From Bdellovibrio sp. (lineage in GTDB: Bacteria > Bdellovibrionota > Bdellovibrionia > Bdellovibrionales > Bdellovibrionaceae), in assembly GCA_014376935.1 (NCBI GenBank), contig JACMQO010000145.1, forward strand, positions 1-32,731: a stretch of DNA of 32,731 nucleotides, given 5' to 3'. The notes under the pieces were generated by a model. It was not told the DNA's origin and ran no database searches. It was given only the letters and a program-made list of their open reading frames with translations. Shown here one piece after another: positions 10,841-30,081 of this stretch; position 1 is the stretch's first letter; every line of letters begins with the position of its first letter. Made by a program: the position numbers and the translations under genes.

Positions 10841-12285
10841 TATCAGCGATGAAAAATCTTGATCAACGAATAGTTTTTCTTTTTTCTGGTCGAATTGTTC
10901 AGGCGTTCTTAACTGTTTTCACCATTCGCATCATGACGGGGACTCTACCCGCTGTTGAGATTGGTAATCAGTATATTATAAATTCAATTTATTTATGGTT
11001 CAGCATGGTCCTAATCAATCCGGTCGGTATGTTTGTCAGCCGTCATTTGAACGAATGGAAAAATGATCGAAAAATTTATTATATTCTAAATGGAATGAAT
11101 TCGTATTTTGTCCTTGTGGCATTAATAAGTATTCCTTCGGTGGTCCTCGCAAAATATTTTTTCAATGTGCTTTATCTTAATTCTTACGGAGAAGTCATAA
11201 TCCTGGTATCGGCGCTGATTTACATCAGCACGTGGTTTGCACTTTTGAATTCTTTTTTTAATCTGCTGGAATTTCAGAAAACGTTTGTCGTGCTGAACAG
11301 TTTGTCTCAAGTCACCGGTTTGGTAGTTTCCTACGTCATCGTTCGCTTCCTCCGAACGGACGCGCTGGGGTGGTTGTCCGGAATTCTACTAGGACAGCTA
11401 TTAGGTTTGGTTGTGGGCATTTGGCTTTTCCGTAGATTTGTTCCCCACGACGACGCCGAAAATAAACCTCGGCAAGAATTGTTTTTTACCCGAGAGGCCT
11501 TTGCGTTTTGTCATCCCGTCGCGATCACAACTTTGTTTATGTGGTTTTTAAATCAAGGTTACCGTTTTATCGTAGAGAAAAATCTTGGGTTAGAAACATT
11601 GGCTTCCGTAGCGATCGGTTTAGGTCTGGCCACCAGTACGGTGGGCTTGATTGAATTAGTTACGACTCAGTATTTTTATCCCAAATATTACGCCAGCTTA
11701 TTAAATTCAACCCTCGAGCAGCGTCGGGCCGCGTGGGAAATTCTGTGGAAAAAATCGGTAATTATTTACATCGTCGGGACTTGCGCTATATTGTCGATGT
11801 CGCATTTTATCATCGAAATTTTGGTCGCGCCAGAATTCCGAAACATAATACTTTACCTCGTCGTGGGAATCGGAATCGAGTTCTTTAAAATTAATTCAAA
11901 TATTCTGTATCTGGTGGCTCATGGGGAAAAGAAAACAACCCGCACGATCATTCCTTACTTTACCGGTGCCGTGCTGCTGATTTTATTTTTCATTGGGCTG
12001 TATTATTTTCGGGAATTAAGTGTTAATTATGTTTTGTACGCATTGATGGCGGCTCACTTGGCGACGTATATTTCGAACCTGCACCAGGTCAAAAAAATGA
12101 TAAGTCCATCGTATGATAAACTTATCATCTTTAAATCCGTTTTGGCCGGACTTCCTTTAGTCATTGCTTTTGTTTTTTTGCAAGGAGCTCCTTTTGTCGT
12201 TCTCTTCGGCGCCGCGGCGGCCAGTGGTCTATGGTGTCTCGGGTGTATTTACTATTTAGTTGGTGAACTTGAGGTCAATATATGA
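10837..12285 (+). CDS. wzx: Wzx-type oligosaccharide flippase (first copy)
   Basis: This is a 482-aa polytopic protein with hydrophobic segments spread along the whole length, about a dozen by eye, of the MOP/polysaccharide-transporter type. Wzx proteins flip undecaprenyl-diphosphate-linked repeat units across the inner membrane. No single short motif proves it; the call rests on topology, size and position among glycosyltransferases. It overlaps its neighbours by 4 nt on both sides. A second flippase-like gene lies at 26688-27998, so which one handles the repeat unit is open. Confidence 0.85.
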   Translation: MISAMKNLDQRIVFLFSGRIVQAFLTVFTIRIMTGTLPAVEIGNQYIINSIYLWFSMVLINPVGMFVSRHLNEWKNDRKIYYILNGMNSYFVLVALISIPSVVLAKYFFNVLYLNSYGEVIILVSALIYISTWFALLNSFFNLLEFQKTFVVLNSLSQVTGLVVSYVIVRFLRTDALGWLSGILLGQLLGLVVGIWLFRRFVPHDDAENKPRQELFFTREAFAFCHPVAITTLFMWFLNQGYRFIVEKNLGLETLASVAIGLGLATSTVGLIELVTTQYFYPKYYASLLNSTLEQRRAAWEILWKKSVIIYIVGTCAILSMSHFIIEILVAPEFRNIILYLVVGIGIEFFKINSNILYLVAHGEKKTTRTIIPYFTGAVLLILFFIGLYYFRELSVNYVLYALMAAHLATYISNLHQVKKMISPSYDKLIIFKSVLAGLPLVIAFVFLQGAPFVVLFGAAAASGLWCLGCIYYLVGELEVNI

Positions 12286-13520: not shown

Positions 13521-14496
<976 letters not shown>

Positions 14497-14504
<8 letters not shown>

Positions 14505-15651
14505 GGTTGAAAATTTTATTTCGTTCGCGAAAAGATTATATCCTGACAAATCATTAATCGGTTTGCATGAGCCTATTTTCAAAGGAAATGAAAAAAAATA
14601 CACCGAACGCTGTATCGACAGCACGTTCGTTTCTTCGGTTGGGGAATTTGTAACGGGTTTCGAGATCAGCATTTCCGAGTTTACCAAAATTCCTTACGCC
14701 GTGGCTTGCGTCAACGGAACCGCGGCTTTGCACATGGCGCTAATTTTGTCGGGTGTCGAGCAGAATGACGAAGTACTGACGCAGGCTTTGACGTTCGTGG
14801 CGACGGCTAACGCTATATCTTACTGTAAAGCTCAGCCCATATTTATCGACAGTGATCGACGACGACTCGGTATGGGCGCCGATTCTTTACGAAACTTTTT
14901 AAACGAATACGGCGATGTTCGTAACGATGGATTTTGTTACAACAAGAAAACCAACCGTCGGATCAAGGCTTGCGTACCGATGCACGTGTTTGGCCATCCT
15001 GTCGATTTAGAAGAAATTTTAAAGATTTGTGATCAATTTAAAATTACGTTAATTGAAGACGCGGCCGAATCATTGGGAAGCACTTATAAAAATCATCACA
15101 CCGGTTTCTACGGCCACGTGTCGATACTCAGCTTCAACGGCAACAAGACGATCACGACCGGCGGCGGGGGCATGATCCTCACGCGCGATAAAGAATTGGC
15201 CGCCCGGGCAAAGCACCTTACCACGACGGCAAAAAATCCGCATAAATGGGAATTCTATCACGATGAAATTGGATATAATTATCGTTTACCTAACATCAAT
15301 GCCGCCTTAGGCGTCGCGCAGATGGAATACCTATCTGAAATTTTGGACAACAAACGAAAAACGGCGATGGAATATAAAACGTTCTTCCAGAATTCAGAAT
15401 TTGAATTCATCAACGAACCAACGGATTCAAAATCTAATTTCTGGTTAAATGCCATTTTGCTAAAATCTAAAACCGAACGCGATCAGTTTTTACAAGACAC
15501 GAATGAAAATGGCGTCATGACTCGTCCGGTATGGGCGCTGATGAATGAATTGAAGCAGTTCAGCGCAGCCCAGACGACGGATTTGACGAACGCCATTTAT
15601 TTAAGAGACCATCTCGTCAATATTCCAAGCAGCTACAGGAAGTCTTTATGA
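14497..15651 (+). CDS. legC: NDP-4-keto-sugar aminotransferase LegC
   Basis: This is a PLP-dependent transaminase of the DegT family, 384 aa, that places an amino group at C4 of the LegB product. Lys217 in 'LSFNGNKTITTGGGGMIL' is the PLP lysine, and 'LIEDAAESLGSTYKNHHTG' is the cofactor-binding Asp segment. The N-terminal 'GLHEPIFKGNEKKY', 'CVNGTAALHMAL' and the inserted loop around 'FCYNKKTNRRIKACVPMHVFGH' are characteristic of LegC. The ATG start is inside the end of legB, and the stop overlaps the next gene. The order legB-legC-acetyltransferase-synthase-epimerase is typical of this pathway. Confidence 0.92.
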
Positions 15652-16247
15652 TGAAAAATATTTACCTGATCGGCGGGGGCGGGCACTGCGTTTCCTGCAT
15701 TGACGTGATCGAATCGACCAAAGAATTTGTGATCAAGGGCATCTTCGATCGCCAAGAAAACGTCGGACAAATGATTTTAGGCTACCCGATTATCGGTACC
15801 GATGAAGACATCGAGAAGTATATTTCCAAAGACAATTTTTTTCTGATAACGCTAGGTCAGATAAAATCAACCGAAGTTCGGGAAAAGTTAGCCGCGCACG
15901 TTGCGCGTCTTCAGGGGCAGCTCGTAAAAGTTATATCTTCCCGAGCCTACGTTTCTCCGCATGCGCAAATAGGCGCGGGAACGATCGTCATGCATGACGT
16001 ACTCGTAAACGCTAACGCAAGCGTGGGTGATCACTGCATCTTAAATTCAAAATCATTAGTTGAACATGATGCACAGATAGGAAATTTCTGTCACGTTTCA
16101 ACCGGCGCGATCATCAACGGAAGTGTAAATATCGAATCGCGATCGTTTATCGGCAGCAACGCCGTCGTGAAACATTCGGTTACGGTTTCCGCAAATTCTT
16201 TGATCCAGGCGGGTCAATTCCACCAGGGTAAAGGCGTTAAGTCATGA
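15648..16247 (+). CDS. NeuD/PglD-family sugar acetyltransferase, likely LegH role
   Basis: This is a hexapeptide-repeat acyltransferase of 199 aa with the N-terminal Rossmann-like sugar-binding domain of the NeuD/PglD family ('IYLIGGGGHCVSCIDVIES') and a C-terminal left-handed beta-helix ('ARAYVSPHAQIG' type repeats, about residues 100-199). PglD acetylates the C4 amine of the UDP-4-amino-sugar, and NeuD-like proteins are associated with sialic acid acetylation. Between legC and legI, N-acetylation of the C4 amine (the LegH step) is the most economical reading, since no other acetyltransferase for that step is present. Acetylation of the finished nonulosonate remains possible. ATG 15648 or 15651. 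Confidence 0.8.
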   Translation: MMKNIYLIGGGGHCVSCIDVIESTKEFVIKGIFDRQENVGQMILGYPIIGTDEDIEKYISKDNFFLITLGQIKSTEVREKLAAHVARLQGQLVKVISSRAYVSPHAQIGAGTIVMHDVLVNANASVGDHCILNSKSLVEHDAQIGNFCHVSTGAIINGSVNIESRSFIGSNAVVKHSVTVSANSLIQAGQFHQGKGVKS

Positions 16248-17245
16248 AAAAGGTTCTGATCATAGCTGAGGCGGGCGTAAATCATAACGGCAATTTAAAA
16301 ACGGCCATAGAACTTGTGCATAAAGCAGTGGAAGCTCAAGTGGATATCGTTAAGTTTCAAACCTTCAAAGCAAAGTTGTTGGCCACGGCCGATGCTAAAA
16401 CCGCGGACTACCAGAATAAAAATCTAAAATCTCAGGATTCTTCGCAGCTTGAGATGTTGAAGAAGCTTGAACTGTCTTTCGAGGATCATCATGTTCTTAA
16501 AGAAGAATGCCGCAAATTAGGAACTGGTTTTTTATCAACGGCTTTCGATTTTGAAAGTTTAGATTTTTTGATGTCGTTAAATTTAGGACTTTGGAAAATT
16601 CCGAGCGGAGAAATCACGAACCTACCTTATTTAGAAAAAATTGGTAAATTAAATCAACCCACCATCGTATCGACCGGGATGTGCGATCTTTCGGAAGTTG
16701 ACGCTGCCCTGAGAGTATTGCGGACGTCGGGCTTGTCGGATTCAAACCTCACCGTTCTACATTGCAATACGGATTACCCAACCCAAATGTCGGACGTCAA
16801 TCTTCGTGCGATGCAGGCCATGGGGAAAGAATTTGGCATCGCCTATGGTTATTCGGACCACACATTAGGAATCGAGATCCCAACTGCGGCCGTGGCCTTA
16901 GGCGCGACCGTCATCGAAAAACATTTTACTTTAGATCGCAACATGACGGGACCTGATCATGCGGCGTCGTTAGAGCCGAATGAATTAAAAGCCATGGTCA
17001 AAGCGATTCGTCATGTCGAACAGGCTTTGGGATCATCGATCAAGGCCCCAAGCCTAAGAGAATCCGCGAATAAGGCCGTGGCCCGAAAATCGATCGTGGC
17101 CGCAACGGAAATTAACGCGGGCGAAATGTTGACCGTGCATAATATGACGACGAGTCGTCCGGGAACCGGTATTTCCCCTATGAAGTGGCACGATGTTTTA
17201 GGCAAGTCCGCCCAAAAAAATTATAAGGCAGGCGATTTAATATGA
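16244..17245 (+). CDS. legI: N,N'-diacetyllegionaminate synthase (NeuB family)
   Basis: This condenses phosphoenolpyruvate with the 6-deoxy-mannosamine derivative to form the nine-carbon legionaminic-type acid. The NeuB TIM barrel is recognisable from 'IAEAGVNHNGN', 'DIVKFQTFKA', 'KIPSGEITNLPYL', 'STGMCDLSEVDAAL', 'GYSDHTLGIEIP' and 'IEKHFTLDRNMTGPDH'. The last 55 residues form the SAF (antifreeze-like) domain with 'RKSIVAATEINAGEMLT'. At 333 aa it is full length. Both ends overlap neighbours by 4 nt. NeuB, PseI and LegI share the fold; the LegB/LegC/LegG neighbours argue for the legionaminic type over sialic or pseudaminic acid. Confidence 0.93.
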   Translation: MKKVLIIAEAGVNHNGNLKTAIELVHKAVEAQVDIVKFQTFKAKLLATADAKTADYQNKNLKSQDSSQLEMLKKLELSFEDHHVLKEECRKLGTGFLSTAFDFESLDFLMSLNLGLWKIPSGEITNLPYLEKIGKLNQPTIVSTGMCDLSEVDAALRVLRTSGLSDSNLTVLHCNTDYPTQMSDVNLRAMQAMGKEFGIAYGYSDHTLGIEIPTAAVALGATVIEKHFTLDRNMTGPDHAASLEPNELKAMVKAIRHVEQALGSSIKAPSLRESANKAVARKSIVAATEINAGEMLTVHNMTTSRPGTGISPMKWHDVLGKSAQKNYKAGDLI

Positions 17246-18426
17246 AAAAAAAGATCGCGCTTTATACCAGTACGCGCGCGGATTACGGATTACTAAAACC
17301 GTTGATCGCACGGTTGATTTTATTGAATAGTTTCGACGTCCGGATATTTGCGACCGGAACTCATTTAGAAAAAGATTTCGGATTTACGATTACGGAAATT
17401 GAAAAAGATTTTCCACAAAATATTTTTTACCGCGTTCAACAGTCGATGCAGGAAGACCCTCAACTCAAAAACTTACTGATCATGGGCGAGGCGATTCAGA
17501 AATACGCGGAAGCGTTGGTCGCCGATAAACCGGATATTGCCGTGATCCTAGGGGATCGCTACGAAGCTTTGTGTTTCGGAATCGTTTGCTCGTCGTTATC
17601 GATTCCGATCATCCATCTGCACGGTGGAGAACTCACTTTGGGTGCAATGGACGATAAATTCCGTCACTGTCTGACCAAGTTATCTGAGTGGCATTTTGTG
17701 GCTTGCGAGGATTACCGACGTCGTGCTATTCAACTGGGCGAAGCGCCCGATACCGTATTTAACGTTGGTGCTCTCGGGGTCGACAATGCCCTTCATCAAA
17801 AATTAATGAGCATTAACGAGTTGGAAGCCGATTTGGGAATTCAGTTTCCTCGCGAGACTTATCTGTTTACATTTCATCCCGAAACTAATTCCAAAGATTA
17901 CGGTGCGGGTTTATTGAACGTTTTTTTAAAACAATTAGAGGATCGGATTAAATCTCAAAAAGCATTAGTTATAATCACCGGCGTTAACAGTGATCCTGGT
18001 TCCGGCGCGATCAAGGGCATCGTTGCAGAGTTTCAAGCGCGATTCCCGACCGGGAAACAGGTTCTTTTTAAGGAATCTCTGGGTTTGACTCGTTATTTGT
18101 CCGTCATGAAAGTAGCCATGGCGGTTCTAGGTAATTCTTCAAGTGGCATCTTGGAATCCTTCAGCATGCGAACTCCTAGCGTAAATATTGGCACACGCCA
18201 AGAAGGTCGCATAAGAGAATCGAGCGTGATCGATTTATATTCGGAGCAAGACTGTTCAGATTTCGATTTTAATCAGCTGCTGACGCTAAAAGGCGCGATG
18301 GCCAAGGCAACGAATCACAAAAGCATTTTTGGAGATGGTCAGACTTCAGCTCTAATGGCCGATGAGATCGCACACATTTTGCAAAAGCCGGCACTCAAAA
18401 ATAAGATTTTTTTCGATCAAAAATAA
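17242..18426 (+). CDS. legG: NDP-diacetyl-bacillosamine 2-epimerase, hydrolysing (LegG/NeuC family)
   Basis: This removes the nucleotide from NDP-2,4-diacetamido-2,4,6-trideoxyglucose and inverts C2, giving the mannose-configured substrate of LegI. Family features include 'TSTRADYGLLKPLI' at the N-terminus, 'ILGDRYEAL', 'HLHGGELTLGAMDDKFRH' and 'VLGNSSSGILESFS'. It is 394 aa, a normal length. It overlaps legI by 4 nt and is followed by a 64-nt gap. NeuC of the sialic acid pathway is close in sequence, but NeuC would not need LegB and LegC. Confidence 0.92.
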   Translation: MKKKIALYTSTRADYGLLKPLIARLILLNSFDVRIFATGTHLEKDFGFTITEIEKDFPQNIFYRVQQSMQEDPQLKNLLIMGEAIQKYAEALVADKPDIAVILGDRYEALCFGIVCSSLSIPIIHLHGGELTLGAMDDKFRHCLTKLSEWHFVACEDYRRRAIQLGEAPDTVFNVGALGVDNALHQKLMSINELEADLGIQFPRETYLFTFHPETNSKDYGAGLLNVFLKQLEDRIKSQKALVIITGVNSDPGSGAIKGIVAEFQARFPTGKQVLFKESLGLTRYLSVMKVAMAVLGNSSSGILESFSMRTPSVNIGTRQEGRIRESSVIDLYSEQDCSDFDFNQLLTLKGAMAKATNHKSIFGDGQTSALMADEIAHILQKPALKNKIFFDQK

Positions 18427-18490: not shown

Positions 18491-19555
18491 GTGACCATGA
18501 GCTTACCTATGGAATCGACGATTATTATCAAGCGCAATCAAACGCTTAAACAAGCAATGGAAATCCTAAATACGAGTGCCCTGCATATTTGCTTCGTGAT
18601 CGGCGATAATGGTGAGCTTATCGGATCGTTAACTGATGGTGATGTCCGACGCGGTTTCCTGAAGGGAGCAACGTTAGAATCTTCCGTAGCGGATTATATG
18701 AATCCGGCTCCTAAGACCATTCCGGAGGGTCTTTCGGTAGATGAGATCGTAAAGCACATGAACACATGGGGCGTGCGCCAACTACCCGTTGTTAATAAGT
18801 TCGGAATGATTATCAAAGTAGAGACGGTAGAAGGCGTGATGCATCTCTTCCAAAAGTCGAATCGGGTTATTTTGATGGCCGGTGGATTCGGTAAAAGATT
18901 AAGCCCGTTAACGGATCATATTCCAAAACCTTTATTGCAAGTGGACGGCGTGCCGATACTAGAACACATTTTAAGACGATTTAAAGAATTGGGTTTTTAC
19001 CGATTTACAGTTTCGTTAAACTATAAAGCCGATATGATCATGGACCACTTCGGCGACGGGTCTCGACTCGGGTTAGAGATAGACTATCTTCACGAAGACA
19101 AACCCCTCGGGACTTGCGGCGCCTTATCCTTATTGAAAGAAAAACCTACCGAACCTTTTTTCGTGATGAACGGTGATTTGCTAACGCGTGCGAATTTTTC
19201 AACTATATTAGAATACCACAGTTCACAAAAGTCATTTGCGACCATGTGTGTTCGGGAGCATTCGTTTGAAGTACCTTACGGGGTGGTAAAATCCGATGGA
19301 AATAAAATTATATCTATCGAAGAAAAACCGAAGGAGATCACATTCATCAATGCAGGAATATATGTATTGTCGCCGGAAGTTTTGGATTACATCGACTCGA
19401 ACAATTATTTGGATATGCCGACGCTTTTCATGAACCTGGCCAAAAAAGATAAAAACATATTGAGTTGTGTATTGCGTGATTACTGGCTGGACATCGGAAG
19501 AATGGAAGATTTCCACCGTGCCCAAACTGATTACGAGAAATATTACAAATTATGA
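18491..19555 (+). CDS. ptmE: PtmE-like CBS-domain nucleotidyltransferase
   Basis: This is a fusion of two CBS repeats (about residues 10-120, with 'VIGDNGELIGSLTDGDVRRG') and a sugar-phosphate nucleotidyltransferase domain (about 125-354, with AGGFGKRLSPLTDHIPKP at 130-147). In C. jejuni, PtmE of this architecture makes GDP-glucosamine from GlcN-1-P for legionaminic acid, so a GDP-linked route is likely here too. The CBS pair may bind a nucleotide effector. The start is uncertain: GTG 18491, ATG 18497 and ATG 18509 are all in frame, and no clear Shine-Dalgarno decides; 18509 best fits the start of the CBS domain. The 64-nt gap before it contains TAGACA (18461-18466) 17 nt from TGATAT, a weak promoter candidate. 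Confidence 0.85.
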   Translation: MTMSLPMESTIIIKRNQTLKQAMEILNTSALHICFVIGDNGELIGSLTDGDVRRGFLKGATLESSVADYMNPAPKTIPEGLSVDEIVKHMNTWGVRQLPVVNKFGMIIKVETVEGVMHLFQKSNRVILMAGGFGKRLSPLTDHIPKPLLQVDGVPILEHILRRFKELGFYRFTVSLNYKADMIMDHFGDGSRLGLEIDYLHEDKPLGTCGALSLLKEKPTEPFFVMNGDLLTRANFSTILEYHSSQKSFATMCVREHSFEVPYGVVKSDGNKIISIEEKPKEITFINAGIYVLSPEVLDYIDSNNYLDMPTLFMNLAKKDKNILSCVLRDYWLDIGRMEDFHRAQTDYEKYYKL

Positions 19556-20229
19556 AACCAAGCGTTCTGGCGATCGTGCCGGCCCGGGCCCATTCTAAAA
19601 GAATCCCGGGTAAAAATAAGAAAATTTTTATGGGAAAGCCCTTGATTGACTGGAGCATAGACGCCGCATTAAGTTCTGGATGCGTTACCGACGTCTACGT
19701 TACGACGGACGATGAGGATATTCTCCAATTCAAAACGCATTATCCCTCCGTCCATTTCGTTAATCGTCCGGCCGAACTGGCCGTTGATTCGACTCCTGGC
19801 GTAGAGCCTGTCCTTCATTTGATGAATCAAATCGGTCGAGTTTACGATTACGTTCTTTTATTACAACCGACGTCGCCTTTACGAGATAGCGAGCATATCG
19901 ATGCGGCTTTCAAAACACTTTTGGAAAATAAAGCACCGCAGATTGTCAGTGTAAAAAAAATGTCGGACACGCTTGGGCACATTGTTTATAAGACGAACGA
20001 TGGACTACAGTTTTTGAAAAATAATATTTCTGAAAAATCTGAGGAAAATCAATTGAAGGTTCTCAACGGCGCTATATACATCTCGGAATGGAAAACGCTT
20101 TTGACGGAAAAAACTTTCCTCGGTAAAGGTGTTTCGTTTTTTGAGATGGATGAACTTTCCTCGGTGGATATTGACTTTCCGGACGACTGGCAACGAGCGG
20201 AGCGCTACGCCAGCATGAAAGTGCAATGA
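19552..20229 (+). CDS. legF: CMP-legionaminic acid synthetase (NeuA/LegF family)
   Basis: This cytidylyltransferase of 225 aa would activate the nonulosonic acid with CTP to CMP-Leg. Evidence: 'AIVPARAHSKRIPGKN' at residues 7-22 (CTP-binding motif), 'VYVTTDDEDI', and 'LLQPTSPLRDSEHID'. It overlaps ptmE and the hisF-like gene by 4 nt each. It closes the set legB-C-(H)-I-G-F in the order expected for a working pathway. Substrate preference (Leg, Neu5Ac or Pse) is not readable from motifs; the neighbours decide. Confidence 0.92.
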   Translation: MKPSVLAIVPARAHSKRIPGKNKKIFMGKPLIDWSIDAALSSGCVTDVYVTTDDEDILQFKTHYPSVHFVNRPAELAVDSTPGVEPVLHLMNQIGRVYDYVLLLQPTSPLRDSEHIDAAFKTLLENKAPQIVSVKKMSDTLGHIVYKTNDGLQFLKNNISEKSEENQLKVLNGAIYISEWKTLLTEKTFLGKGVSFFEMDELSSVDIDFPDDWQRAERYASMKVQ

Positions 20230-21086
20230 TGGAAAAAAGATACATTCGACTTATACCAAGGTTAGACATTAAGGGACCCAATCTGGTTAAAGGAATTCAG
20301 TTAGAAGGCCTCCGCGTCCTCGGCCAGCCCGATATTTTCGCGAAAGAATATTACGAAGCGGGCGCCTGCGAGTTATTCTACATGGACGTGGTCGCTAGTT
20401 TGTTCGAAAGAAATAGTCTAACGAGTATGGTCTCAAACATCGCGCGGGATATTTTTGCTCCCATTACGGTAGGTGGCGGGCTTCGCAATTTGGACGACAT
20501 CAAAAAAGTTTTGGATAGCGGAGCCGATAAGGTAGCGCTTAATACCGCCGCCATACGAAATCCGAAATTGATCTCTGAGGCCGCAAATAAGTTTGGTTCA
20601 TCAACAATTGTGGTATGCATCGAAGCGATTAAACAGCCGGATGGAAGATATTTGGCGTTTGTCGACAACGGTCGAGAGCACACCGGCGTCGAAGTTTTTG
20701 AATGGACCAAAAAAGTTGCGGATCTAGGTGCGGGCGAAATTGTTATTACCTCTGTGGATCGCGAAGGGAGCGGGGCGGGATTCGATATCGAACTCATTAA
20801 CCAAGTTTCAAATCTGGTTAGTGTTCCGGTCGTCGCGCACGGTGGTGCGGGTTCCGTCGACGATATCATCCGCGTTATCCGTGAAACAAAGGTGAACGGA
20901 ATCGCCGTAGCTTCGATTTTTCATTACTACCTGCTGGATAAAATCAATACCTTCGGGACTTCGAAAGATGAGGGTAACACGCGATTTTTAAGCGAAAAGC
21001 GCACCTTTAGCAAAATCAAACCTATCTCCTTTGCTTCTTTATTAGAAGAGCTTAAAAAACACAATGTGGTATGTAGATCGATATGA
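20226..21086 (+). CDS. HisF paralogue of the acetamidino-sugar pathway
   Basis: This is a (beta-alpha)8 barrel of the HisF family, 286 aa, with 'IPRLDIKGPNLVKG', 'ITVGGGLRNLDDI', 'GADKVALNTAAI', 'TSVDREGSGAGFDIELI' and 'VVAHGGAG'. Asp14 corresponds to HisF Asp11, but the second catalytic Asp (Asp130 in Thermotoga HisF) is Glu133 here ('VVCIEAI'). The C-terminus is longer than in HisF. Together with the adjacent HisH-like and WbpG-like genes it matches the HisF2/HisH2/WbpG system of Pseudomonas aeruginosa O5, in which HisF/HisH deliver glutamine-derived ammonia for turning an N-acetyl group into acetamidino. A histidine-biosynthesis role is unlikely in this context. ATG 20226 or 20229. Confidence 0.87.
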   Translation: MMEKRYIRLIPRLDIKGPNLVKGIQLEGLRVLGQPDIFAKEYYEAGACELFYMDVVASLFERNSLTSMVSNIARDIFAPITVGGGLRNLDDIKKVLDSGADKVALNTAAIRNPKLISEAANKFGSSTIVVCIEAIKQPDGRYLAFVDNGREHTGVEVFEWTKKVADLGAGEIVITSVDREGSGAGFDIELINQVSNLVSVPVVAHGGAGSVDDIIRVIRETKVNGIAVASIFHYYLLDKINTFGTSKDEGNTRFLSEKRTFSKIKPISFASLLEELKKHNVVCRSI

Positions 21087-21724
21087 CTAAGAAAATTGCA
21101 ATTATTGATTATGGATTAGGTAATATATTTAGCATCAAGCAAGCGTTACTAAGATGCGATGCTGAAGTGGTCGTCACCGATTCCCACGAAGTCATTAAAG
21201 CTGCCGATGGCTTATTATTGCCTGGCGTAGGAGCGTTCACGGATGCAATGCTGCGCTTAAACCGATCTGGTTTAGCCCAACTCATCCAAGAAGAAGTTCA
21301 AAACAAGAAGCCTCTACTGGGTGTGTGTTTAGGGCTACAGCTCCTTTTCGATAGAAGTTTTGAATTTGGCGAGTCTAAAGGACTTGGGCTTATTCCGGGA
21401 GATGTTATCCAGTTTCCGACCAGCTACGAAAGTCATTCATTACGTGTTCCGTTCATTGGATGGAACACGGTTAATCGAACAGATAGCCAGACTTCTAACA
21501 AACTCCTAGAGGGTATTTCAGAAAAAGAAAAATTCTATTTTGTCCATTCTTACCATGCTAAACCTGCCGACGAGAACTGCGTGGTTGCCTACTGTGACTA
21601 CTTAAGTTATGTTTATCCAGCGATTATTCAAGTTGGACATATTGTTGGCGTCCAAGGGCATCCCGAAAAAAGCTCTGAAGCCGGCCTACGATTTTATAAG
21701 AATTGGATCGATAGCATTAAGTAG
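21083..21724 (+). CDS. HisH paralogue, glutamine amidotransferase subunit
   Basis: This is a class I glutaminase of 213 aa. The triad is visible: Cys82 in 'LLGVCLGLQLLF', and His193 with Glu195 in 'GVQGHPEKSSEAG'. 'LLLPGVGAFTDAM' is the HisH oxyanion region. It would hydrolyse glutamine and channel ammonia through the HisF-like barrel encoded by the preceding gene, which it overlaps by 4 nt. It is followed after 7 nt by the WbpG-like sugar amidotransferase that would use the ammonia. No other histidine gene is near. Confidence 0.9.
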   Translation: MTKKIAIIDYGLGNIFSIKQALLRCDAEVVVTDSHEVIKAADGLLLPGVGAFTDAMLRLNRSGLAQLIQEEVQNKKPLLGVCLGLQLLFDRSFEFGESKGLGLIPGDVIQFPTSYESHSLRVPFIGWNTVNRTDSQTSNKLLEGISEKEKFYFVHSYHAKPADENCVVAYCDYLSYVYPAIIQVGHIVGVQGHPEKSSEAGLRFYKNWIDSIK

Positions 21725-21731
21725 GTGTTAA

Positions 21732-22949
21732 ATGGAAAAATTAGTGACGAAATTCGGTCTTCCGTCCGAAGTTAAATTTTGTAAAAAATGTGTTATTTCA
21801 AATCAACGTCCCTCATCTGCTGCCGAACATAAACATAACAAAGACAGTAAAAAATCGACGATCGGGTTTGATGATCTCGGAGTTTGCGATGCCTGTCGGG
21901 CTGCCGAATCTAAAGACAAAATTGACTGGGTCCAACGCGAAAAAGAATTAGTTCAGCTTTTAGATAAGTACCGTAGCAAGGATGGGTCTTACGATTGTCT
22001 CGTTCCGGGAAGCGGTGGAAAAGACAGCGCGTACCAAGCGCATATTTTAAAATACAAGTATGGAATGAACCCGCTCACTCTGACTTGGCCCCCAATCATG
22101 TACACGACTTACGGCTACGAAAATTGGAAAAACTGGATAGAAATCGGTGGATTCGACAACATGACGATTAAACCGAACGGAAAGGTCCAAAAGCTTTTAA
22201 CCCGATTGTCGATTGAAAACATTTTTCATCCGTTCCAAACGTTTATGCTGGGGCAGAAAAATGTGGCTCCAAAAATAGCCGCTAAACTTGGAATCAATTT
22301 AGTTTTCTACGGAGAAAATGAAGCTGAATATGGAAATCCGATCGCTGAAAATCAGTCGTCGCTTCGGGACAAAGCTTACTTCAGCGCGCAAAATTTAAAT
22401 GATATCTATCTAGCCGGCGTCCCGTATCAGGAACTCAAACAAAAGCATAATTTAACCGATGCCGATTTAAAACTGTATCTACCAATTGAAGAAAAAGATT
22501 TAGCGAACAGAGATATCAATATTCACTTCTTGGGTTACTATTTGCGTTGGACTCCGCAAGAAGTGTTTTATTATGCCGTTGAAAACACCGGATTTAAGGC
22601 GCGTCCGTTCCGTAGCCAAGGCACTTATTGCAAATACCACAGCATTGACGACAAAATTGATGATCTACATTTTTACACCACCTACATTAAGTTTGGGATC
22701 GGGCGATGTTCCTACGACGCTTCCCAAGAGATTAGAAATAATCACATCACCCGCGAAGAGGGTGTTCAGTTGGTAAAGAAATTCGATGGCGAATTTCCGG
22801 ACCGTTATTTCGGTGATCTGATGGAGTATCTAGAAATGAAGCCGGAAAGATTTATGGAACTGTGTGATGAAAATCGTTCGCCGCATCTTTGGAAAAAGGA
22901 AAATGACAAATGGATGCTTCGCCACGCCGTATGGAATGAGTCTAAATAA
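21732..22949 (+). CDS. N-acetyl sugar amidotransferase (WbpG/PseA family)
   Basis: This is an ATP-dependent PP-loop enzyme of 405 aa that forms an acetamidino group from a sugar N-acetyl group. The PP-loop P-G-S-G-G-K-D-S is at residues 92-99. Two Cys pairs, Cys17/Cys20 ('FCKKCVIS') and Cys52/Cys55 ('VCDACR'), probably bind zinc. 'SQGTYCKYHSIDDKIDDL' further on is typical of the family. In Campylobacter, PseA acts in making Pse5Ac7Am and PtmG is assigned to amidinated legionaminic acid; P. aeruginosa WbpG acts on ManNAc3NAcA. The preceding legionaminic genes make an amidinated Leg derivative the likely product. Confidence 0.92.
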   Translation: MEKLVTKFGLPSEVKFCKKCVISNQRPSSAAEHKHNKDSKKSTIGFDDLGVCDACRAAESKDKIDWVQREKELVQLLDKYRSKDGSYDCLVPGSGGKDSAYQAHILKYKYGMNPLTLTWPPIMYTTYGYENWKNWIEIGGFDNMTIKPNGKVQKLLTRLSIENIFHPFQTFMLGQKNVAPKIAAKLGINLVFYGENEAEYGNPIAENQSSLRDKAYFSAQNLNDIYLAGVPYQELKQKHNLTDADLKLYLPIEEKDLANRDINIHFLGYYLRWTPQEVFYYAVENTGFKARPFRSQGTYCKYHSIDDKIDDLHFYTTYIKFGIGRCSYDASQEIRNNHITREEGVQLVKKFDGEFPDRYFGDLMEYLEMKPERFMELCDENRSPHLWKKENDKWMLRHAVWNESK

Positions 22950-22951
22950 AA

Positions 22952-23890
22952 ATGAATTATGACATTCGAGTTCCCCATGGAGTCATGTTTCACCATTTTC
23001 ATGGTGGGACTCATCCGACGGGGCAAGGAAGTATTTCGCAAGCTGATTTCGAAAAGATGCTTCTTTTTATCGGGATAGATAATATCGTCGGCGCTGCTGA
23101 TTGGTTTGAAAAATATCCTCTGCGCCAGTTGGAAAATAAGGTCTGTATCACTTTTGATGACAGCCTGAAATGTCAGTACGATTTGGCCAAACCAGTCCTA
23201 GATAAGTACAACATTAAAGCTTTTTTCTTTGTTTATACTTCGGTTTTGACCGGCGCGGTAGAATACCTGGAAGTGTTTAGGTATTTTAGAAGTGTCGCTT
23301 TTAAAAATTTCGATGATTTCTTCGGCGCTTTTATCGAAAGACTTCAAAAATCTGAATTTTCGGAAGCGGTAAATCTCGCCTTAACTCATTTTAATCCTGA
23401 CGCTTATCTTGAAAAATTCAGTTTTTACACCAAGAACGACAAGATTTTTCGCTACTTACGAGATCACGTTTTAAAAGTAAAAAATTACAATCAAATTATG
23501 TTGGACCTGATTCAGGCTCATGGTTATTCGATTGATGACATCAAAAAAAATCTCTGGATGTCTGCGAACGAAGTTAAGCAGCTTAAAGACGAAGGACACT
23601 TCATTGGTCTTCATTCCGATACGCATCCCACCACTTTGGGTCTGCTGGAAAAGGAAATGCAAAAGCAAGAATATACGCAGAATAAAAGTAGTCTGGAAGA
23701 AATAATCGGGAGCTCCATTCTGACAATGTCGCACCCCTGTAATTCGTACGATACCAATACTTTAGACATTCTTAAAAAACTGAAAATCCAGATGGGTTTC
23801 CGGGCCAACATGGAATCCGGTTTTGACTCCGTCTTCGAAATTCCAAGAGAAGATCACATTAATGTTTATAAAAAAATGAGGGGCGAATGA
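22952..23890 (+). CDS. NodB-type polysaccharide deacetylase family protein
   Basis: This is a carbohydrate-esterase-4-like protein of 312 aa. The metal-binding residues are visible: Asp69/Asp70 in 'CITFDDSL' and the H-x3-H motif His221/His225 in 'GLHSDTHPTT', followed by 'TMSHPCNSYD'. No signal peptide or membrane segment is seen, so it is probably cytoplasmic and acts on a sugar nucleotide, free sugar or lipid-linked intermediate rather than on wall polymer. A long insert (about residues 95-205) separates the two metal motifs. It starts 2 nt after the amidotransferase and overlaps the formyltransferase by 4 nt, suggesting that the two act in sequence. Its substrate is unknown. Confidence 0.82.
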   Translation: MNYDIRVPHGVMFHHFHGGTHPTGQGSISQADFEKMLLFIGIDNIVGAADWFEKYPLRQLENKVCITFDDSLKCQYDLAKPVLDKYNIKAFFFVYTSVLTGAVEYLEVFRYFRSVAFKNFDDFFGAFIERLQKSEFSEAVNLALTHFNPDAYLEKFSFYTKNDKIFRYLRDHVLKVKNYNQIMLDLIQAHGYSIDDIKKNLWMSANEVKQLKDEGHFIGLHSDTHPTTLGLLEKEMQKQEYTQNKSSLEEIIGSSILTMSHPCNSYDTNTLDILKKLKIQMGFRANMESGFDSVFEIPREDHINVYKKMRGE

Positions 23891-24681
23891 AAATTGCTCT
23901 GTTTACCAGTAATCAAGCAAGACACTTACATTTGATGGAGAAGCTTTCGGAAATCGCTAGCGAAGTTTTAGTCGTCAGTGAAGTGACAACGGTGTTTCCG
24001 GGGGCTACGCAGGATTTTTATAATAAATCGGACGTCATGAAAGAGTATTTTCAGAAGATGCAAGAAGCCGAACAGGAAGTTTTCGGCGCATCAAGATTTT
24101 TGCCAGCTAATCTGCGTTTAATGCCCCTGAAGATGGGAGATCTAAATTCTCTCCCGGTCGCCCTTTTCAACGAATTAAAAGAAGTGGACTACATCGTAGT
24201 ATTTGGAGCCAGTTGGATTAAAGGCGAGCTGTGTGATCTGCTTGTCCAAAAGAAAGCCATCAATATCCATATGGGTATTTCGCCTTACTACCGAGGCGCA
24301 GCCTGTAATTTCTGGGCGATCTACGACGGTAGAGTAGACTTCGTCGGCGCCACGGTACATTACCTCAGCAAAGGGCTGGATTCAGGTGACATGATCTTTC
24401 ACGCTCTTCCAAAGGCTGAAGCCGTCGGAGGATTTAAATTGGGTATGCTGGCAGTTAGAGCTGCGCACTTGTCACTTTGTAAAGCGTTACAGAACGGCAG
24501 CTTATTCAGTCTACCTTCCGTCAAACAGGATAAGGATCAGCAAATCAGATATTCTAAACGAGCCGAATTTAATGATGAAGTGGCGAAAGAATTTTTATTG
24601 AATCCTGTAGACCCGAAACTTATCCATGATGTAAATTCGAGCAGGGATTTAACTCAATTTCTCAACCCTCAGATCATCTAA
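23887..24681 (+). CDS. Formyltransferase-fold protein, candidate sugar N-formyltransferase
   Basis: This 264-aa protein has the catalytic core of the methionyl-tRNA/GART formyltransferase family. Asn126 and His128 in 'INIHMGISPYYRGAACNFW' and Asp165 in 'SKGLDSGDMIFH' reproduce the Asn-x-His ... Asp triad of PurN and Fmt. It lacks an obvious C-terminal tRNA-binding domain, so it is not Fmt. Sugar N-formyltransferases such as VioF, QdtF and WlaRD use N10-formyl-tetrahydrofolate to formylate an amino sugar. Position after the deacetylase and the nonulosonate genes suggests that it formylates an amine on the legionaminic-type acid, but the 3-amino sugar of the dTDP pathway is an alternative. Confidence 0.83.
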   Translation: MKIALFTSNQARHLHLMEKLSEIASEVLVVSEVTTVFPGATQDFYNKSDVMKEYFQKMQEAEQEVFGASRFLPANLRLMPLKMGDLNSLPVALFNELKEVDYIVVFGASWIKGELCDLLVQKKAINIHMGISPYYRGAACNFWAIYDGRVDFVGATVHYLSKGLDSGDMIFHALPKAEAVGGFKLGMLAVRAAHLSLCKALQNGSLFSLPSVKQDKDQQIRYSKRAEFNDEVAKEFLLNPVDPKLIHDVNSSRDLTQFLNPQII

Positions 24682-24694
24682 AATTAAGGATTAA

Positions 24695-25813
24695 ATGGGT
24701 TTTCTATCAAAGATATTATTTTTGTTTAGCAGTCTTTCGATGTTACCGCCGAGCAAAAAAAAGCAAATGGAAATCATTCGCAATGCCGAACGTAACAATA
24801 CGCACGTCATTCCTTTTCTAAGAAATTCACGCAGCCAGTACGAAACTCAAAGCCATTACTTTAACGAGTCTGTCTGGATGATATTTAACGTGGTTTCTTT
24901 TTGTATGTTGATTCCGGTTCTTTTGCTCCTTTGCGCGCGAGCCTTTAAGCGTACGCAAAAAAATTTAAAACCCCATGTAACTTTGTACGCGAAAACTCCG
25001 AAGTTTCTTGTAATGAACCATCAACTTGATTACATCAAAAAGCCCACCGGTTTTATTTTAAGCCGCGATTTAAAATACATTTCGAAAATTTTATTTACGT
25101 CTGGTTTTCGACCATATTTTGTTTTGCGAGCCATCTGGAAAATTGCGGTTTACTCTGAAATTATGAAAATCTATGAACCGCAGCAAATCTGGGTCACTCA
25201 GGAAATGGTTTTTGAATCCTCTTTGGCTACACATTATCTTGCCGATTTTAAGATTGAGCATATCAACTTCATGCACGGAGACCTTTACTTTTCGATTAAA
25301 GAGGCTTTCGGCACATTTACGAAATTTTACGTATGGGATGATCACTTCATCAAAATGATGACCGAACAGAAAGTTCAGGCCCAGTTTGTACTTTTTCCGG
25401 CCTTAGAGTTTGATGCTTCACGAGTCTCAGAAAAGAATGTCATAAAATACTACGCCCAGGGCACGAGCAACAAAGATGTTTTTGTTAAAATCGTAGAAAA
25501 CCTGAAAAAATTTGCGGCTAAGAATGAATGCGGTATCGTTGTGCGACTTCATCCAAATCATAAAAAGCAATTTGAAATCGAAATATTGAATGAAAAAAAG
25601 ATTTCGATTGAACCGAATGACGTCCAAATACTGAATTCCATAGCAGAATCAAGATTTGTCTGTTCAGAATATTCTTCAGTGCTTTATGAAGCCTCTTTGT
25701 TGGGGAAGCAACTTGTAGTGGATAACACTTTTCCCGAGCGTATTGAATTGCTTACGGATTTAGATGTCATAATTTTTAAAAAACTAAAACATGTATTACT
25801 TGTTACTTCCTAA
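24695..25813 (+). CDS. Orphan membrane-anchored protein with HP and SS motifs, candidate nonulosonate transferase
   Basis: I do not recognise a named family. The 372-aa protein has a hydrophobic N-terminus and a clear membrane segment at about residues 61-82, followed by a basic stretch. The C-terminal third has 'VVRLHPNHKKQ' (His286-Pro287) and 'CSEYSSVLYEASLLGK' (Ser327-Ser328). An HP dipeptide after a basic residue, then a Ser pair about 40 residues later, is the arrangement of bacterial sialyltransferases and polysialyltransferases, and similar features occur in CDP-glycerol transferases. As the gene follows the CMP-nonulosonate genes, it is a candidate legionaminyltransferase. An AAGG ribosome-binding site precedes the ATG. 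Its stop overlaps the convergent GT2 gene by 11 bp. Confidence 0.6.
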   Translation: MGFLSKILFLFSSLSMLPPSKKKQMEIIRNAERNNTHVIPFLRNSRSQYETQSHYFNESVWMIFNVVSFCMLIPVLLLLCARAFKRTQKNLKPHVTLYAKTPKFLVMNHQLDYIKKPTGFILSRDLKYISKILFTSGFRPYFVLRAIWKIAVYSEIMKIYEPQQIWVTQEMVFESSLATHYLADFKIEHINFMHGDLYFSIKEAFGTFTKFYVWDDHFIKMMTEQKVQAQFVLFPALEFDASRVSEKNVIKYYAQGTSNKDVFVKIVENLKKFAAKNECGIVVRLHPNHKKQFEIEILNEKKISIEPNDVQILNSIAESRFVCSEYSSVLYEASLLGKQLVVDNTFPERIELLTDLDVIIFKKLKHVLLVTS

Positions 25814-26687: not shown

Positions 26688-27998
26688 ATGACAAGCGCCA
26701 TAAAAAACAGCTTCTGGTATTTATTCTTTAATCTGTCCAGATTGGTAGTTCTTTTTTTGGGCACGATGTGGATTTCTCGAGTTTTAGGGCCCGAATCCTT
26801 TGGCCAATTTAGTTATCTTTTGTCCGTGATCGTTTTTGTATCAGCCATCGATTCTTTATGTCACGAGAGTATCGTTAAGCAATATTTAACCCAGCATCAG
26901 GATGCGGGACTCATTATGGGGACCGCTTCATTATTAAATTTAATTCTTGCGGCTATCGCCGTCCTTTTCATCCTGATTTTTGGGTTTCTGACGATTCCCG
27001 AAAGTTTGCTTCTGGCGACATTCTTTTTATTCATTCCTGGTCAGCTCAGTAAACCGATTAATCCCGTTGCTAATCTGTTCGATATCCGATTGCTGTCAAA
27101 GTATTCTAGTTTAGGGTTGTTTGTAGGGGCCCTCATCTCCATCGTCTTTCGCGTGGGTGGAGTGAGCTTTTCGCACGATCTTTGGTTTCAAAGTTTAGGC
27201 TATTCAATGCAAACTCTCGTTTACGCCGGCGTGCTTTATTTACTCTATCGTAAAAAACTGGAGCATTTGGAATGGAAGGTTTCGCTACAACTTTTACGTG
27301 AAATGGTGAAAAAAAGCTCTCCTATCTTTTTATCGGCTTTAGTTTACCTATCGATTTCCCAAAGTGATATTTTTTTCATTCGCCATATGTTGGGGGCCCA
27401 CGAGGTGGGGATCTATTCGGTCGTCGTAAAACTATCGGAGCCCTGGGTCATCGTCAGTTCAGCCTTATGCACATCCTATTTTCCACTTATTTTCCGTTCG
27501 GCTCATAATCTGAAAAAGCAGGCGGATTATTTCATCCGCGCAAACCAGATTTCGGTCTATTTTGTTAGCATCTTGGGATTAGTTCTGAGTTTAGCGATCG
27601 AGTTTATCGTCAGATTACTTTTAGGTCCCGCGTACTCCGAGGTGAGTTCAATTTTCAGGATTTATTACTGGAGTATTATCTTTCTTTTCTTCGCTAATAT
27701 TCAGCACATCTGGGAAGTTTACAACGGTCTTTACTCGGTTTCCCTTTATAAAACGATCGTCACTTGCATACTGAAAATCGCTTTGAGTTTCATCCTAGGT
27801 CGGCTCTACGGACTGCAAGGATTCGCCTTGGCGACCGTTATTTCCCTTTTCTTCTACGGGGTAGGGTTTAATTTTTTTAATGCGACCACGCGTCCCTACT
27901 TAGCCTTGCAAACCCGTGCATTTACATTGAGTGAAGCTAAAAAGAACTATAGACTTTTCCGTCAGAGGGCAAAGAAATGGCTCAAAAAAGAGTATTAA
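26688..27998 (+). CDS. wzx: Wzx-type oligosaccharide flippase (second copy)
   Basis: This is a 436-aa polytopic membrane protein. The start 'NSFWYLFFNLSRLVVLFLGTM' followed by 'SRVLGPESFGQFSYLLSVI' is the standard beginning of MOP-superfamily polysaccharide transporters, and hydrophobic segments recur along the whole length. It would flip lipid-linked repeat units. It differs clearly from the flippase at 10837-12285 and is associated with the only Wzy-like gene, which suggests that this pair belongs together. It overlaps the next gene by 22 nt. Confidence 0.88.
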   Translation: MTSAIKNSFWYLFFNLSRLVVLFLGTMWISRVLGPESFGQFSYLLSVIVFVSAIDSLCHESIVKQYLTQHQDAGLIMGTASLLNLILAAIAVLFILIFGFLTIPESLLLATFFLFIPGQLSKPINPVANLFDIRLLSKYSSLGLFVGALISIVFRVGGVSFSHDLWFQSLGYSMQTLVYAGVLYLLYRKKLEHLEWKVSLQLLREMVKKSSPIFLSALVYLSISQSDIFFIRHMLGAHEVGIYSVVVKLSEPWVIVSSALCTSYFPLIFRSAHNLKKQADYFIRANQISVYFVSILGLVLSLAIEFIVRLLLGPAYSEVSSIFRIYYWSIIFLFFANIQHIWEVYNGLYSVSLYKTIVTCILKIALSFILGRLYGLQGFALATVISLFFYGVGFNFFNATTRPYLALQTRAFTLSEAKKNYRLFRQRAKKWLKKEY

Positions 27999-28828
27999 TA
28001 CTGGGCGCGAATGGTTTATTAGGAACGGTCTTAACGAAAGACTTGGCGGCTTCTCGAAAGTTTGAAATCTTCACGCACTCACATTCCACGCAAGCGGATT
28101 TTGGCCACGATCTGTCCAAGTATAAAAGCGTTTGCGAACTTTTGTTATCGGTCAAATCCGATTTTTGTTTAAATTTATTGGCGCTAACCGATGTCAATCT
28201 GTGCGAATCTGAAAAGGAAAAAGCTCATAGGCTTAACGTACTACCCATTCAAAATATTGTAAAATGTGTATTGAAAAACAATTTAGAATTAAAACTAATT
28301 CAGATTTCGACGGATCATGTTTACGATCAAACTTTGGCTTTGGAAACCGACGTCAAAATTGTTAATAACTACGCTTTGTCGAAGTTTATCGGCGACGAAA
28401 TTTCGCAGTTGATGAACGCCGTGGTTCTAAGAACAAATTTTTTTGGTGCATCTCAGTCAAGTAAAGCGAGTTTTTCCGACTGGATCATTCAAAGTTTGAT
28501 GGCGGACAAAGATATCAACGGTTTCGGCGACGTTTATTTCAGTCCGTTACACTTATCAACTCTTTGCGCCGAAATTGAACGAGTCATTTTGAATTTTCAG
28601 CCTGGTGTGTATAATTTAGGTTCAAGATCCGGTTTAAGCAAATATGAGTTTATCGTCGAGTTACGCAAACATAAAAAGATCTCTACGGGCCATGTTTTCG
28701 AAACGAAATATGCAGACGCCAACATCCCCATCCCTAGACCACTCGATATGCGAATGGACGTTTCTAAATTTGAAAAAGCTTTTAAAACTCAGTTACCGAC
28801 ATTGTTACAGGAGATCTATAAGTGTTGA
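27977..28828 (+). CDS. RmlD-like sugar-nucleotide 4-reductase (SDR)
   Basis: This is an SDR of 283 aa in the dTDP-4-dehydrorhamnose reductase family. It shows 'ILGANGLLGTVL' at the N-terminus, 'LTDVNLCESEKEKAHRLN', the RmlD-type 'ISTDHVYD' at residues 110-117, and Tyr132-x3-Lys136 in 'NNYALSKFIGDE'. With no rmlC in the window it is unlikely to make dTDP-rhamnose. RmlD homologues such as QnlA also reduce UDP-4-keto-6-deoxy-HexNAc in L-QuiNAc synthesis, and an FnlA-like dehydratase is encoded at 30078-31094, so such a role is possible. It overlaps wzx2 by 22 nt and wzy by 7 nt. Confidence 0.8.
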   Translation: MAQKRVLILGANGLLGTVLTKDLAASRKFEIFTHSHSTQADFGHDLSKYKSVCELLLSVKSDFCLNLLALTDVNLCESEKEKAHRLNVLPIQNIVKCVLKNNLELKLIQISTDHVYDQTLALETDVKIVNNYALSKFIGDEISQLMNAVVLRTNFFGASQSSKASFSDWIIQSLMADKDINGFGDVYFSPLHLSTLCAEIERVILNFQPGVYNLGSRSGLSKYEFIVELRKHKKISTGHVFETKYADANIPIPRPLDMRMDVSKFEKAFKTQLPTLLQEIYKC

Positions 28829-30081
28829 TCGCCGACAAATACATCTCTAAAATATACAAGGTGCTTTTTTCTTTAGTCATCGCTTTGTTTCTCGTCCCTT
28901 GGGCGTATCTAGATCAGGCCAGTGGTCTTTATTCTTTCATGCCAAGAAAAGTTTTATTTTTACTTATGGCTATGGCCGGTGCAGTTTTGATCCTTGCGGG
29001 GAAAGACATCTTTCGTAAAGTTATGCACGGGGCCGTATTCGTAGCGCTGGGGCTACTGCATTTGAAACTACATGGTTATCTAGAGCCTCATTATTTTTTT
29101 GAGTTTATTTACATGGAAGTGGCGTTATTAATTTTCTTTGCCCCTACTGAAATTAAAGAGAAATTGTTAAAGATATCTCCCGTGATATTATATATCCTGT
29201 TATTCAAAGCGATCTTTTTCCGGGTCGGGAGTCATATTCACGGCGGGTTTTATTCGAGCAATACTTACGCGACTTACATGGTTTATCTAAGTTTCATCGA
29301 AATTTATAAAAAACGCTACTGGAACTTGGTGCCAGCCGTGGTGGTTATGTTTTTTGCGGGTTCAAAGGCCGTCTACATGGTGCTGGGAATTGTGATCATT
29401 TTGACATGTTTTTCTTACTTAAATGCGGTTCGACAAAATAAGGTCATTAACAAGAATAAAATATTCAAGAATTTTTATTATCCTATCTTCGTGGCTTTCA
29501 TATTTGTGGGGATTCTGTCGCAAGCGATGGTGCGAACGGACTACTACCAAAACTGGGTAAAGGATATCGAACCCATAAGAAAAGATCTGACGGAAGAAAA
29601 TATGATCATGTACGGCGTGGATTCGTCCGAAGAAGCGCTCAAAAAAAGAAGAGCTGTTTTGCGCGATATCGACAAACAACTGAGTGAAAAAGAGCTATCC
29701 AATGGTCCGCTCATTTCCAATGTCTCCATGAGTGGCGGATTTCGGGTCAATCAGTACGAATATATGTACGAAAATTTGTACAAGTACTTTTTGGTTGGCG
29801 ACACGGTTGGCTCCCAGCGGGAAATGATCGGTCACAATCCACATTCGGCCCCCATAGATTTCATTTCAAGACTGGGATTACTTTATTTAATTTTAGTTTT
29901 GGTTTTCTACAAACGCTTATTTAAGGCGATGGATCTTTTCAGATTGAACGTTAGTATCCTGCCGATCATGGCGTTTCAACCTTACGGTTTTACCATTGGT
30001 CATTCTATCGTGATTTTGTCTTTCGTATATTCGCTGGCTAAACTTGCCAAATCGCAAACTGCTCAGTCCGAAGCGATTTAA
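28822..30081 (+). CDS. wzy: O-antigen polymerase-like (Wzy) membrane protein
   Basis: This is a 419-aa polytopic membrane protein with many hydrophobic segments, a large polar loop at about residues 240-345, and then two or three more membrane segments. 'GHNPHSAPIDFISRLGLLYL' (His338 and His341) after the loop is typical of Wzy and O-antigen ligases (WaaL fold). Position next to a flippase favours polymerase over ligase. The start is GTG at 28822, with a GGAG ribosome-binding site at 28810-28813, and overlaps the preceding stop. Its TAA shares TTAA with the stop of the convergent minus-strand gene. Wzy proteins are poorly conserved, so the call rests on topology and context. Confidence 0.8.
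   Translation: MLIADKYISKIYKVLFSLVIALFLVPWAYLDQASGLYSFMPRKVLFLLMAMAGAVLILAGKDIFRKVMHGAVFVALGLLHLKLHGYLEPHYFFEFIYMEVALLIFFAPTEIKEKLLKISPVILYILLFKAIFFRVGSHIHGGFYSSNTYATYMVYLSFIEIYKKRYWNLVPAVVVMFFAGSKAVYMVLGIVIILTCFSYLNAVRQNKVINKNKIFKNFYYPIFVAFIFVGILSQAMVRTDYYQNWVKDIEPIRKDLTEENMIMYGVDSSEEALKKRRAVLRDIDKQLSEKELSNGPLISNVSMSGGFRVNQYEYMYENLYKYFLVGDTVGSQREMIGHNPHSAPIDFISRLGLLYLILVLVFYKRLFKAMDLFRLNVSILPIMAFQPYGFTIGHSIVILSFVYSLAKLAKSQTAQSEAI

Follow-up and report, generated by a model that had tools for sequence, protein, structure and literature searches.

An orphan GT-B-type glycosyltransferase gene closing a legionaminic acid block in Bdellovibrio: a candidate CMP-legionaminic acid transferase

The window analysed here (i.e. 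the whole stretch of 32,731 nucleotides, from a Bdellovibrio sp. contig) contains a legionaminic acid (Leg) block in which LegB, LegC, NeuD, NeuB and NeuC are followed by a CBS-nucleotidyltransferase (PtmE-like, with homologues in loci L034 and L035), a NeuA/PseF-like synthetase, HisF, HisH, WbuX (an amidotransferase match of 352 bits), a deacetylase, a formyltransferase and, finally, an orphan gene, the candidate (Table 1). This gene order agrees with an earlier sequence-only reading, according to which the candidate closes the nonulosonate block. The genes between the synthetase and the candidate presumably tailor the sugar. HisF/HisH/WbuX-type sets go with acetamidino groups, and such a set, together with a deacetylase and a formyltransferase after the Leg genes, suggests that the legionaminic acid carries acetamidino and formyl groups. 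About 7 kb from the Leg operon of L034 there is also a deacetylase (2844-1948) with 39% identity to that of the window.

Table 1. Coordinates of the features discussed, with the basis of each assignment
Feature	Position	Strand	Basis or size
Leg core genes LegB, LegC, NeuD, NeuB, NeuC	13521..18426	+	NCBIfam, five of five above curated cut-offs
PtmE-like nucleotidyltransferase with extra N-terminal region (GDP-sugar entry, Leg route)	18491..19555	+	sub-cut-off NCBIfam, residues 125-347
CMP-nonulosonate synthetase, NeuA/PseF-like	19552..20229	+	PF02348 E 2e-25; PseF model E 9e-37, below cut-off
HisF/WbuZ-like, HisH, WbuX amidotransferase, polysaccharide deacetylase, formyltransferase	20226..24681	+	Pfam/NCBIfam matches
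Orphan GT-B-type glycosyltransferase, candidate CMP-legionaminic acid transferase	24695..25813	+	372 aa
Hydrophobic segment, residues 57-87	24863..24955	+	hydropathy; low-confidence model
Gln169-Glu170-Met171, proposed general-base loop (Glu170), place of D/E-D/E-G	25199..25207	+	inference, low-confidence region
Arg284-Leu-His286-Pro287, [RK]xHP nucleotide-binding motif	25544..25555	+	sequence; after strand 280-285 of confident domain
Ser327-Ser328, proposed phosphate-binding serines	25673..25678	+	sequence; start of predicted helix 328-335
Wzx-type flippase, downstream of candidate	26688..27998	+	PF01943

The other transferases of the window are two GT2 proteins (4786 and 25803), a GT4 protein (12282), a PF13524 protein (9848) and an initiating sugar transferase (32025), none of which resembles a CMP-nonulosonate transferase by sequence, as had been claimed before. 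A Maf or MptE-like homologue was not found in a search of the genome, nor was a second gene matching the profile of HP-type proteins described below. The window further encodes two flippase-like membrane proteins (10837-12285, without any Pfam match, and 26688-27998), which suggests two glycans or two export routes, as well as a hydrophobic protein of 419 aa (28822-30081) that has no Pfam or NCBIfam match and is Wzy-like by position and hydrophobicity.

The open reading frame of the candidate starts with ATG, 13 bp past the formyltransferase gene and with AAGG a few bases 5' of it. At its 3' end it overlaps convergently by 11 bp (25803-25813) with the GT2 gene on the opposite strand, which is possibly the scar of a rearrangement, and its GC content of 36.8% is the lowest among the window genes. 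This low GC, the short C-terminus lying in the overlap and the lack of a close relative would fit a decayed or truncated, inactive transferase remnant. However, 372 codons are open, the ribosome-binding-like site and the motifs are intact, and no continuation exists downstream in any frame. Moreover, the Mannheimia polysialyltransferase MhPST, which carries an N-terminal membrane anchor, also does without the usual C-terminal extension (PMC5517516), and a remnant is therefore considered quite improbable. With respect to the membrane segment proposed earlier at about residues 61-82, 19-residue hydropathy windows above 1.4 span residues 57-87 (peak 2.58). The hydrophobic stretch itself thus stands, but it could either anchor the protein in the membrane or be buried as the first strand or helix of the N-domain, where the structural model places a strand at residues 68-74 (pLDDT <50).

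No curated Pfam or NCBIfam family reaches its cut-off for the candidate in an HMM search, in line with the earlier statement that no family could be named. The best Pfam scores, for Epimerase_2 and DUF354 (both E 0.002), stay below threshold and cover residues 252-355 only. Up to E 10, neither PF07388 (the GT38 polysialyltransferases) nor any sialyltransferase family, including those of GT52 and GT80, was reported, and NF046086 (BFO_1060) and TIGR04396 (surface carbohydrate) gave no match up to E 1; across the genome NF046086 had none up to E 10. Close relatives were not found in species-genome, plasmid, phage and viral collections (short exact peptides or tblastn), where exact-peptide scans may overlook relatives of moderate identity, and degenerate-peptide scans of viral contigs found nothing either. 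A profile search of 369 genomes of the phylum returned only distant relatives of the C-domain. A protein from the same order (L002) matched weakly (22% identity, E 0.006-0.008), and a scan of genome contigs with the related group returned three loci.

The motifs on which the sequence-only reading was built, Arg-x-His286-Pro287 and Ser327-Ser328, lie exactly at these residues, 41 apart. Among shuffled copies of the candidate, [RK]xHP turns up at any position in 4.8%, and together with S[ST] at the correct distance after it in 0.52%. The combination of [RK]xHP with a later Ser-Ser/Thr pair in the C-domain, by which HP-motif GT-B CMP-ulosonate transferases can broadly be recognised, is thus present, but it is not specific: L013, a clear CDP-glycerol-family protein (PF04464, E 8e-45), has RPHP...SS with the identical 41-residue spacing. 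Since L013 shares the layout, HP...SS indicates an enzyme for cytidine nucleotides and not a sialyltransferase in particular. The sialyltransferase argument is further weakened by the absence of D/E-D/E-G, the second sialyltransferase motif (neither [DE][DE]G nor [DE]G occurs anywhere in the sequence). The QxxxD nucleophile ahead of HP is missing as well; Q255-G-T-S-N259 occupies its place, with Asn at +4, and the only QxxxD (QLVVD, 339-343) comes after HP.

The cytidine-type motif raises the possibility of a CDP-polyol phosphotransferase like TarL or TagF, which would add glycerol- or ribitol-phosphate to the glycan. These enzymes are of the GT-B type and use a cytidine nucleotide donor, as is proposed for the candidate, and HP...SS occurs among them at the same spacing (as in L013); TarL is the best PDB match by sequence (E 0.017) and the second match by Foldseek, and H194-G195 of the candidate recalls the His-Gly of the CDP-glycerol family. 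Against this, the check for a match to that family (PF04464) gave none up to E 10 in Pfam, the Leg block contains no polyol-nucleotide gene, and the genome lacks a CDP-glycerol synthase, the best hit for a glycerol-3-phosphate cytidylyltransferase (E 4.1) being far under the cut-off. Such a function is held to be improbable.

Somewhat more weight, though still on the unlikely side, is given to a GT-B transferase that uses an ordinary NDP-sugar donor to add another sugar of the glycan, with Leg being moved by another of the window's transferases or by one encoded elsewhere. The GT2, GT4 and PF13524 proteins are available for this, enzymes for many different donors share the GT-B C-domain, and the weak Epimerase_2 and DUF354 scores fit as well. 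However, we know of no GT2 or GT4 enzyme with a CMP-nonulosonate donor. In addition, [RK]xHP, which is typical of CMP-sugar enzymes (PMC12887879), is missing from all other window proteins, which leaves the candidate as the only possible Leg transferase of the window with a cytidine-nucleotide motif. A precedent for the NDP-sugar alternative is SpsB of Bacillus subtilis, which has DEG and HP motifs and is encoded beside a CMP-Leg pathway, and yet is dispensable for the transfer of Leg to the spore surface (PMC7439481); this result is a direct warning for any argument from motif and position, including the present one.

A structure predicted with AlphaFold from the single sequence was unusable (pLDDT 39). 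The model used was instead based on an alignment of the candidate with three full-length relatives and seven C-domains, which was picked for HP-type proteins and may therefore bias the C-domain. In this model the C-domain (~240-345) is mostly confident (pLDDT 58-93) and is a GT-B Rossmann domain, whereas most of residues 35-205 in the N-domain stay below 50. Its elements are a strand at 249-254, a helix at 260-276, a strand at 280-285 leading into HP, a strand at 321-324, a helix at 328-335 at the serine pair and a strand at 339-342. Foldseek ranked MhPST first (E 9e-8) and TarL second (1.4e-6), followed by epimerases. VIA also placed MhPST on top, with Z 11.3 (239 residues, 7.6 A) and 10.9 (120 residues, 3.1 A, 22% identity), ahead of epimerases (up to 10.8) and the CMP-Kdo enzymes WbbB, KrkA and KpsC (9.0-9.8), but rows less than 1 apart are tied, and so the top rank of MhPST is tied with epimerases and others. 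GT118 was not among the structural matches listed, which is uninformative either way. A GT-B-like fold, as the earlier reading would require, was thus predicted for the C-domain, which appears to be nucleotide-binding and has a CMP-sialic-acid enzyme (GT38) as its best structural match; the ranking favours, rather than proves, a CMP-sugar enzyme. The many epimerases among these matches, together with the weak Epimerase_2 score in Pfam, leave some room for a GT-B enzyme that is not a transferase, e.g. a second sugar-nucleotide epimerase or a hydrolase (NeuC/PseG-like). However, the block already has a full NeuC (TIGR03568, 345 bits), which lacks RxHP, and the candidate has a hydrophobic N-terminal segment, which makes this the least probable of the alternatives and a very improbable one.

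The relatives of the candidate provide a further line of evidence. A profile of the C-terminal part built from the candidate and one relative (A2) was searched against the 369 genomes and recovered L007 and L009, which are full-length relatives of L002, as well as a set of HP-type GT-B proteins that diverge further; a second profile of three members, from which the candidate was excluded (A4), added further HP-type proteins. In a set with 2000 shuffles of the candidate, A4 scores the candidate at E 6.9e-5 and the best shuffle at 0.055, although this test is not fully independent, since the A4 members were found partly via the candidate. With hhalign, the candidate and A4 aligned over 140 columns at 64% probability, the W214 and HP regions among them (controls: 8% for a CDP-glycerol protein and 0.3% for the NeuC of the window). 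The signal between the candidate and the L002 group drops to E 0.0036 without L002. Judged from these sequence comparisons, what links the candidate to its relatives is a shared C-domain and not membership of one family.

Many of these genes lie near nonulosonate genes. The gene of L002 adjoins a PtmE-like gene inside a double nonulosonate locus, and in a Bacteriovoracaceae genome L007 (locus L034) leads a complete Leg operon (LegB, LegC, NeuD, NeuB, NeuC, PtmE, NeuA), the LegB of which is 63% identical to that of the window. L012 adjoins NeuA- and NeuB-like genes, L030 adjoins PseG and a cytidylyltransferase, L023 and L031 each adjoin a NeuA-like gene, L010 adjoins a KdsB-like gene, and L015, L027 and L033 have NeuB within ~5 kb. 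Overall, NeuB is found on the same contig within 15 kb of 9 out of 16 HP-class genes, compared to 8 out of 109 GT4 genes of the same 15 genomes (Fisher p 1.1e-5), and still in 6 out of 13 when L002, L007 and L009 are left out (p 8e-4). These counts omit L011, L014, L017 and L020 (judged to be UDP-GlcNAc 2-epimerases) and L021 (a fragment), and both the exclusion of epimerases and the NeuB distances were assessed by eye. The association supports a CMP-nonulosonate donor, a reading that is also backed by the full set of Leg and CMP-NulO genes just upstream of the candidate.

Among the known systems, MhPST (GT38; PDB 5wc6/5wcn) is similar in its GT-B C-domain, [RK]xHP with a Ser-Ser/Thr pair after it, hydrophobic segment near the N-terminus and short C-terminus. 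In MhPST the Lys of KxHP recognises cytosine, the phosphate is bound by His291 and Ser339/Thr340 and the ribose by Glu323, and Glu153 acts as the base from an E-E-G loop that connects an N-domain strand to a helix (PMC5517516). However, its His-to-Ser spacing is 48 instead of 41, and its setting is a polysialic acid capsule instead of a Leg block. GT38, raised by the top structural match, was rejected because the candidate has neither a PF07388 match nor D/E-D/E-G, and the same holds for the GT52 and GT80 sialyltransferases, which are likewise GT-B enzymes with an HP motif (PMC2169525) but for which the Pfam match and D/E-D/E-G are both missing. The retaining CMP-Kdo and CMP-Pse transferases (GT99, GT107, GT118, GT140) have a similar C-domain fold and HP...SS CMP site; in KrkA, His227, Ser271 and Ser272 hold the phosphate and the Asp of the QxxxD ahead of HP is the nucleophile (PMC12887879), an element that the candidate lacks. 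The Tannerella forsythia proteins GtfS and TFUB4_00887 have HP motifs, are encoded with CMP-NulO genes and were identified as nonulosonate transferases by knock-out (PMC6388019). The candidate matches neither TIGR04396 nor the BFO_1060 model NF046086, to which these T. forsythia proteins may correspond.

It seems reasonably likely, then, that the candidate is a membrane-associated CMP-legionaminic-type transferase, which would probably be inverting. As a divergent member it probably belongs to the HP-motif GT-B CMP-ulosonate transferases already described, and by the tests run it could be placed in no known family. The earlier proposal of a new legionaminyltransferase is thereby upheld as far as the GT-B C-domain and the association with nonulosonate genes are concerned, and weakened in the specificity of its motifs and the missing D/E-D/E-G, while the preference for legionaminic acid over another CMP-sugar comes from the position of the gene. 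Somewhat doubtful, in comparison, is the further possibility that it founds a new family of inverting CMP-Leg transferases with the base in a Q-E-M loop instead of D/E-D/E-G and a specificity for acetamidino- and/or formyl-tailored Leg.

As a transferase of this kind, the candidate would be a cytoplasmic GT-B enzyme that moves the CMP-activated legionaminic acid derivative of the block onto a lipid-linked glycan (the acceptor being putative), which would then be flipped (Wzx, 26688) and probably polymerised (28822), so that the sugar would end up on a cell-surface glycan. CMP would be bound by the C-terminal Rossmann domain, where Arg284 and Pro287 would sit at the cytosine, the phosphate would be held by His286 and Ser327/Ser328, and the ribose by Glu306 or Asp309. 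If inverting transfer is direct, the best choice for the general base would be Glu170. This residue is in an N-domain loop of low confidence that follows a predicted strand (164-168) and precedes a predicted helix (173-181), close to where x-D-G of the relatives aligns. This loop position and the missing QxxxD favour inverting transfer with Glu170 as the base, and a retaining mechanism was judged less likely, QxxxD being absent from its place.

Legionaminic acid transferases have rarely been identified: the literature found leads to Campylobacter Maf4 and the enzymes of T. forsythia, and SpsB, the obvious choice in B. subtilis, failed. An orphan gene with specified residues makes the missing step of one such pathway testable, and the survey, made here across Bdellovibrionota, suggests that such enzymes may generally be found by looking for HP-type GT-B genes next to CMP-ulosonate genes. 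Some further observations concern other loci. L003 (2468-18138) carries two neighbouring nonulosonate gene sets, both complete but divergent, of which one includes an additional aminotransferase and reductases; between the two lies the HP-type transferase candidate of this locus. L010 (580-1974) encodes a protein of 464 aa just under the PF07388 cut-off (E 9e-5), with the adjacent KdsB-like gene being a CMP-sugar synthetase and no NeuB on the contig. Finally, the related 320-aa proteins of L015 (1402-2367) and L016 (1408-2364) carry RLHP/KLHP and QYS motifs and adjoin an SpsF-like cytidylyltransferase and a transketolase-like gene, possibly as an unrecognised CMP-sugar pathway with its own transferase.
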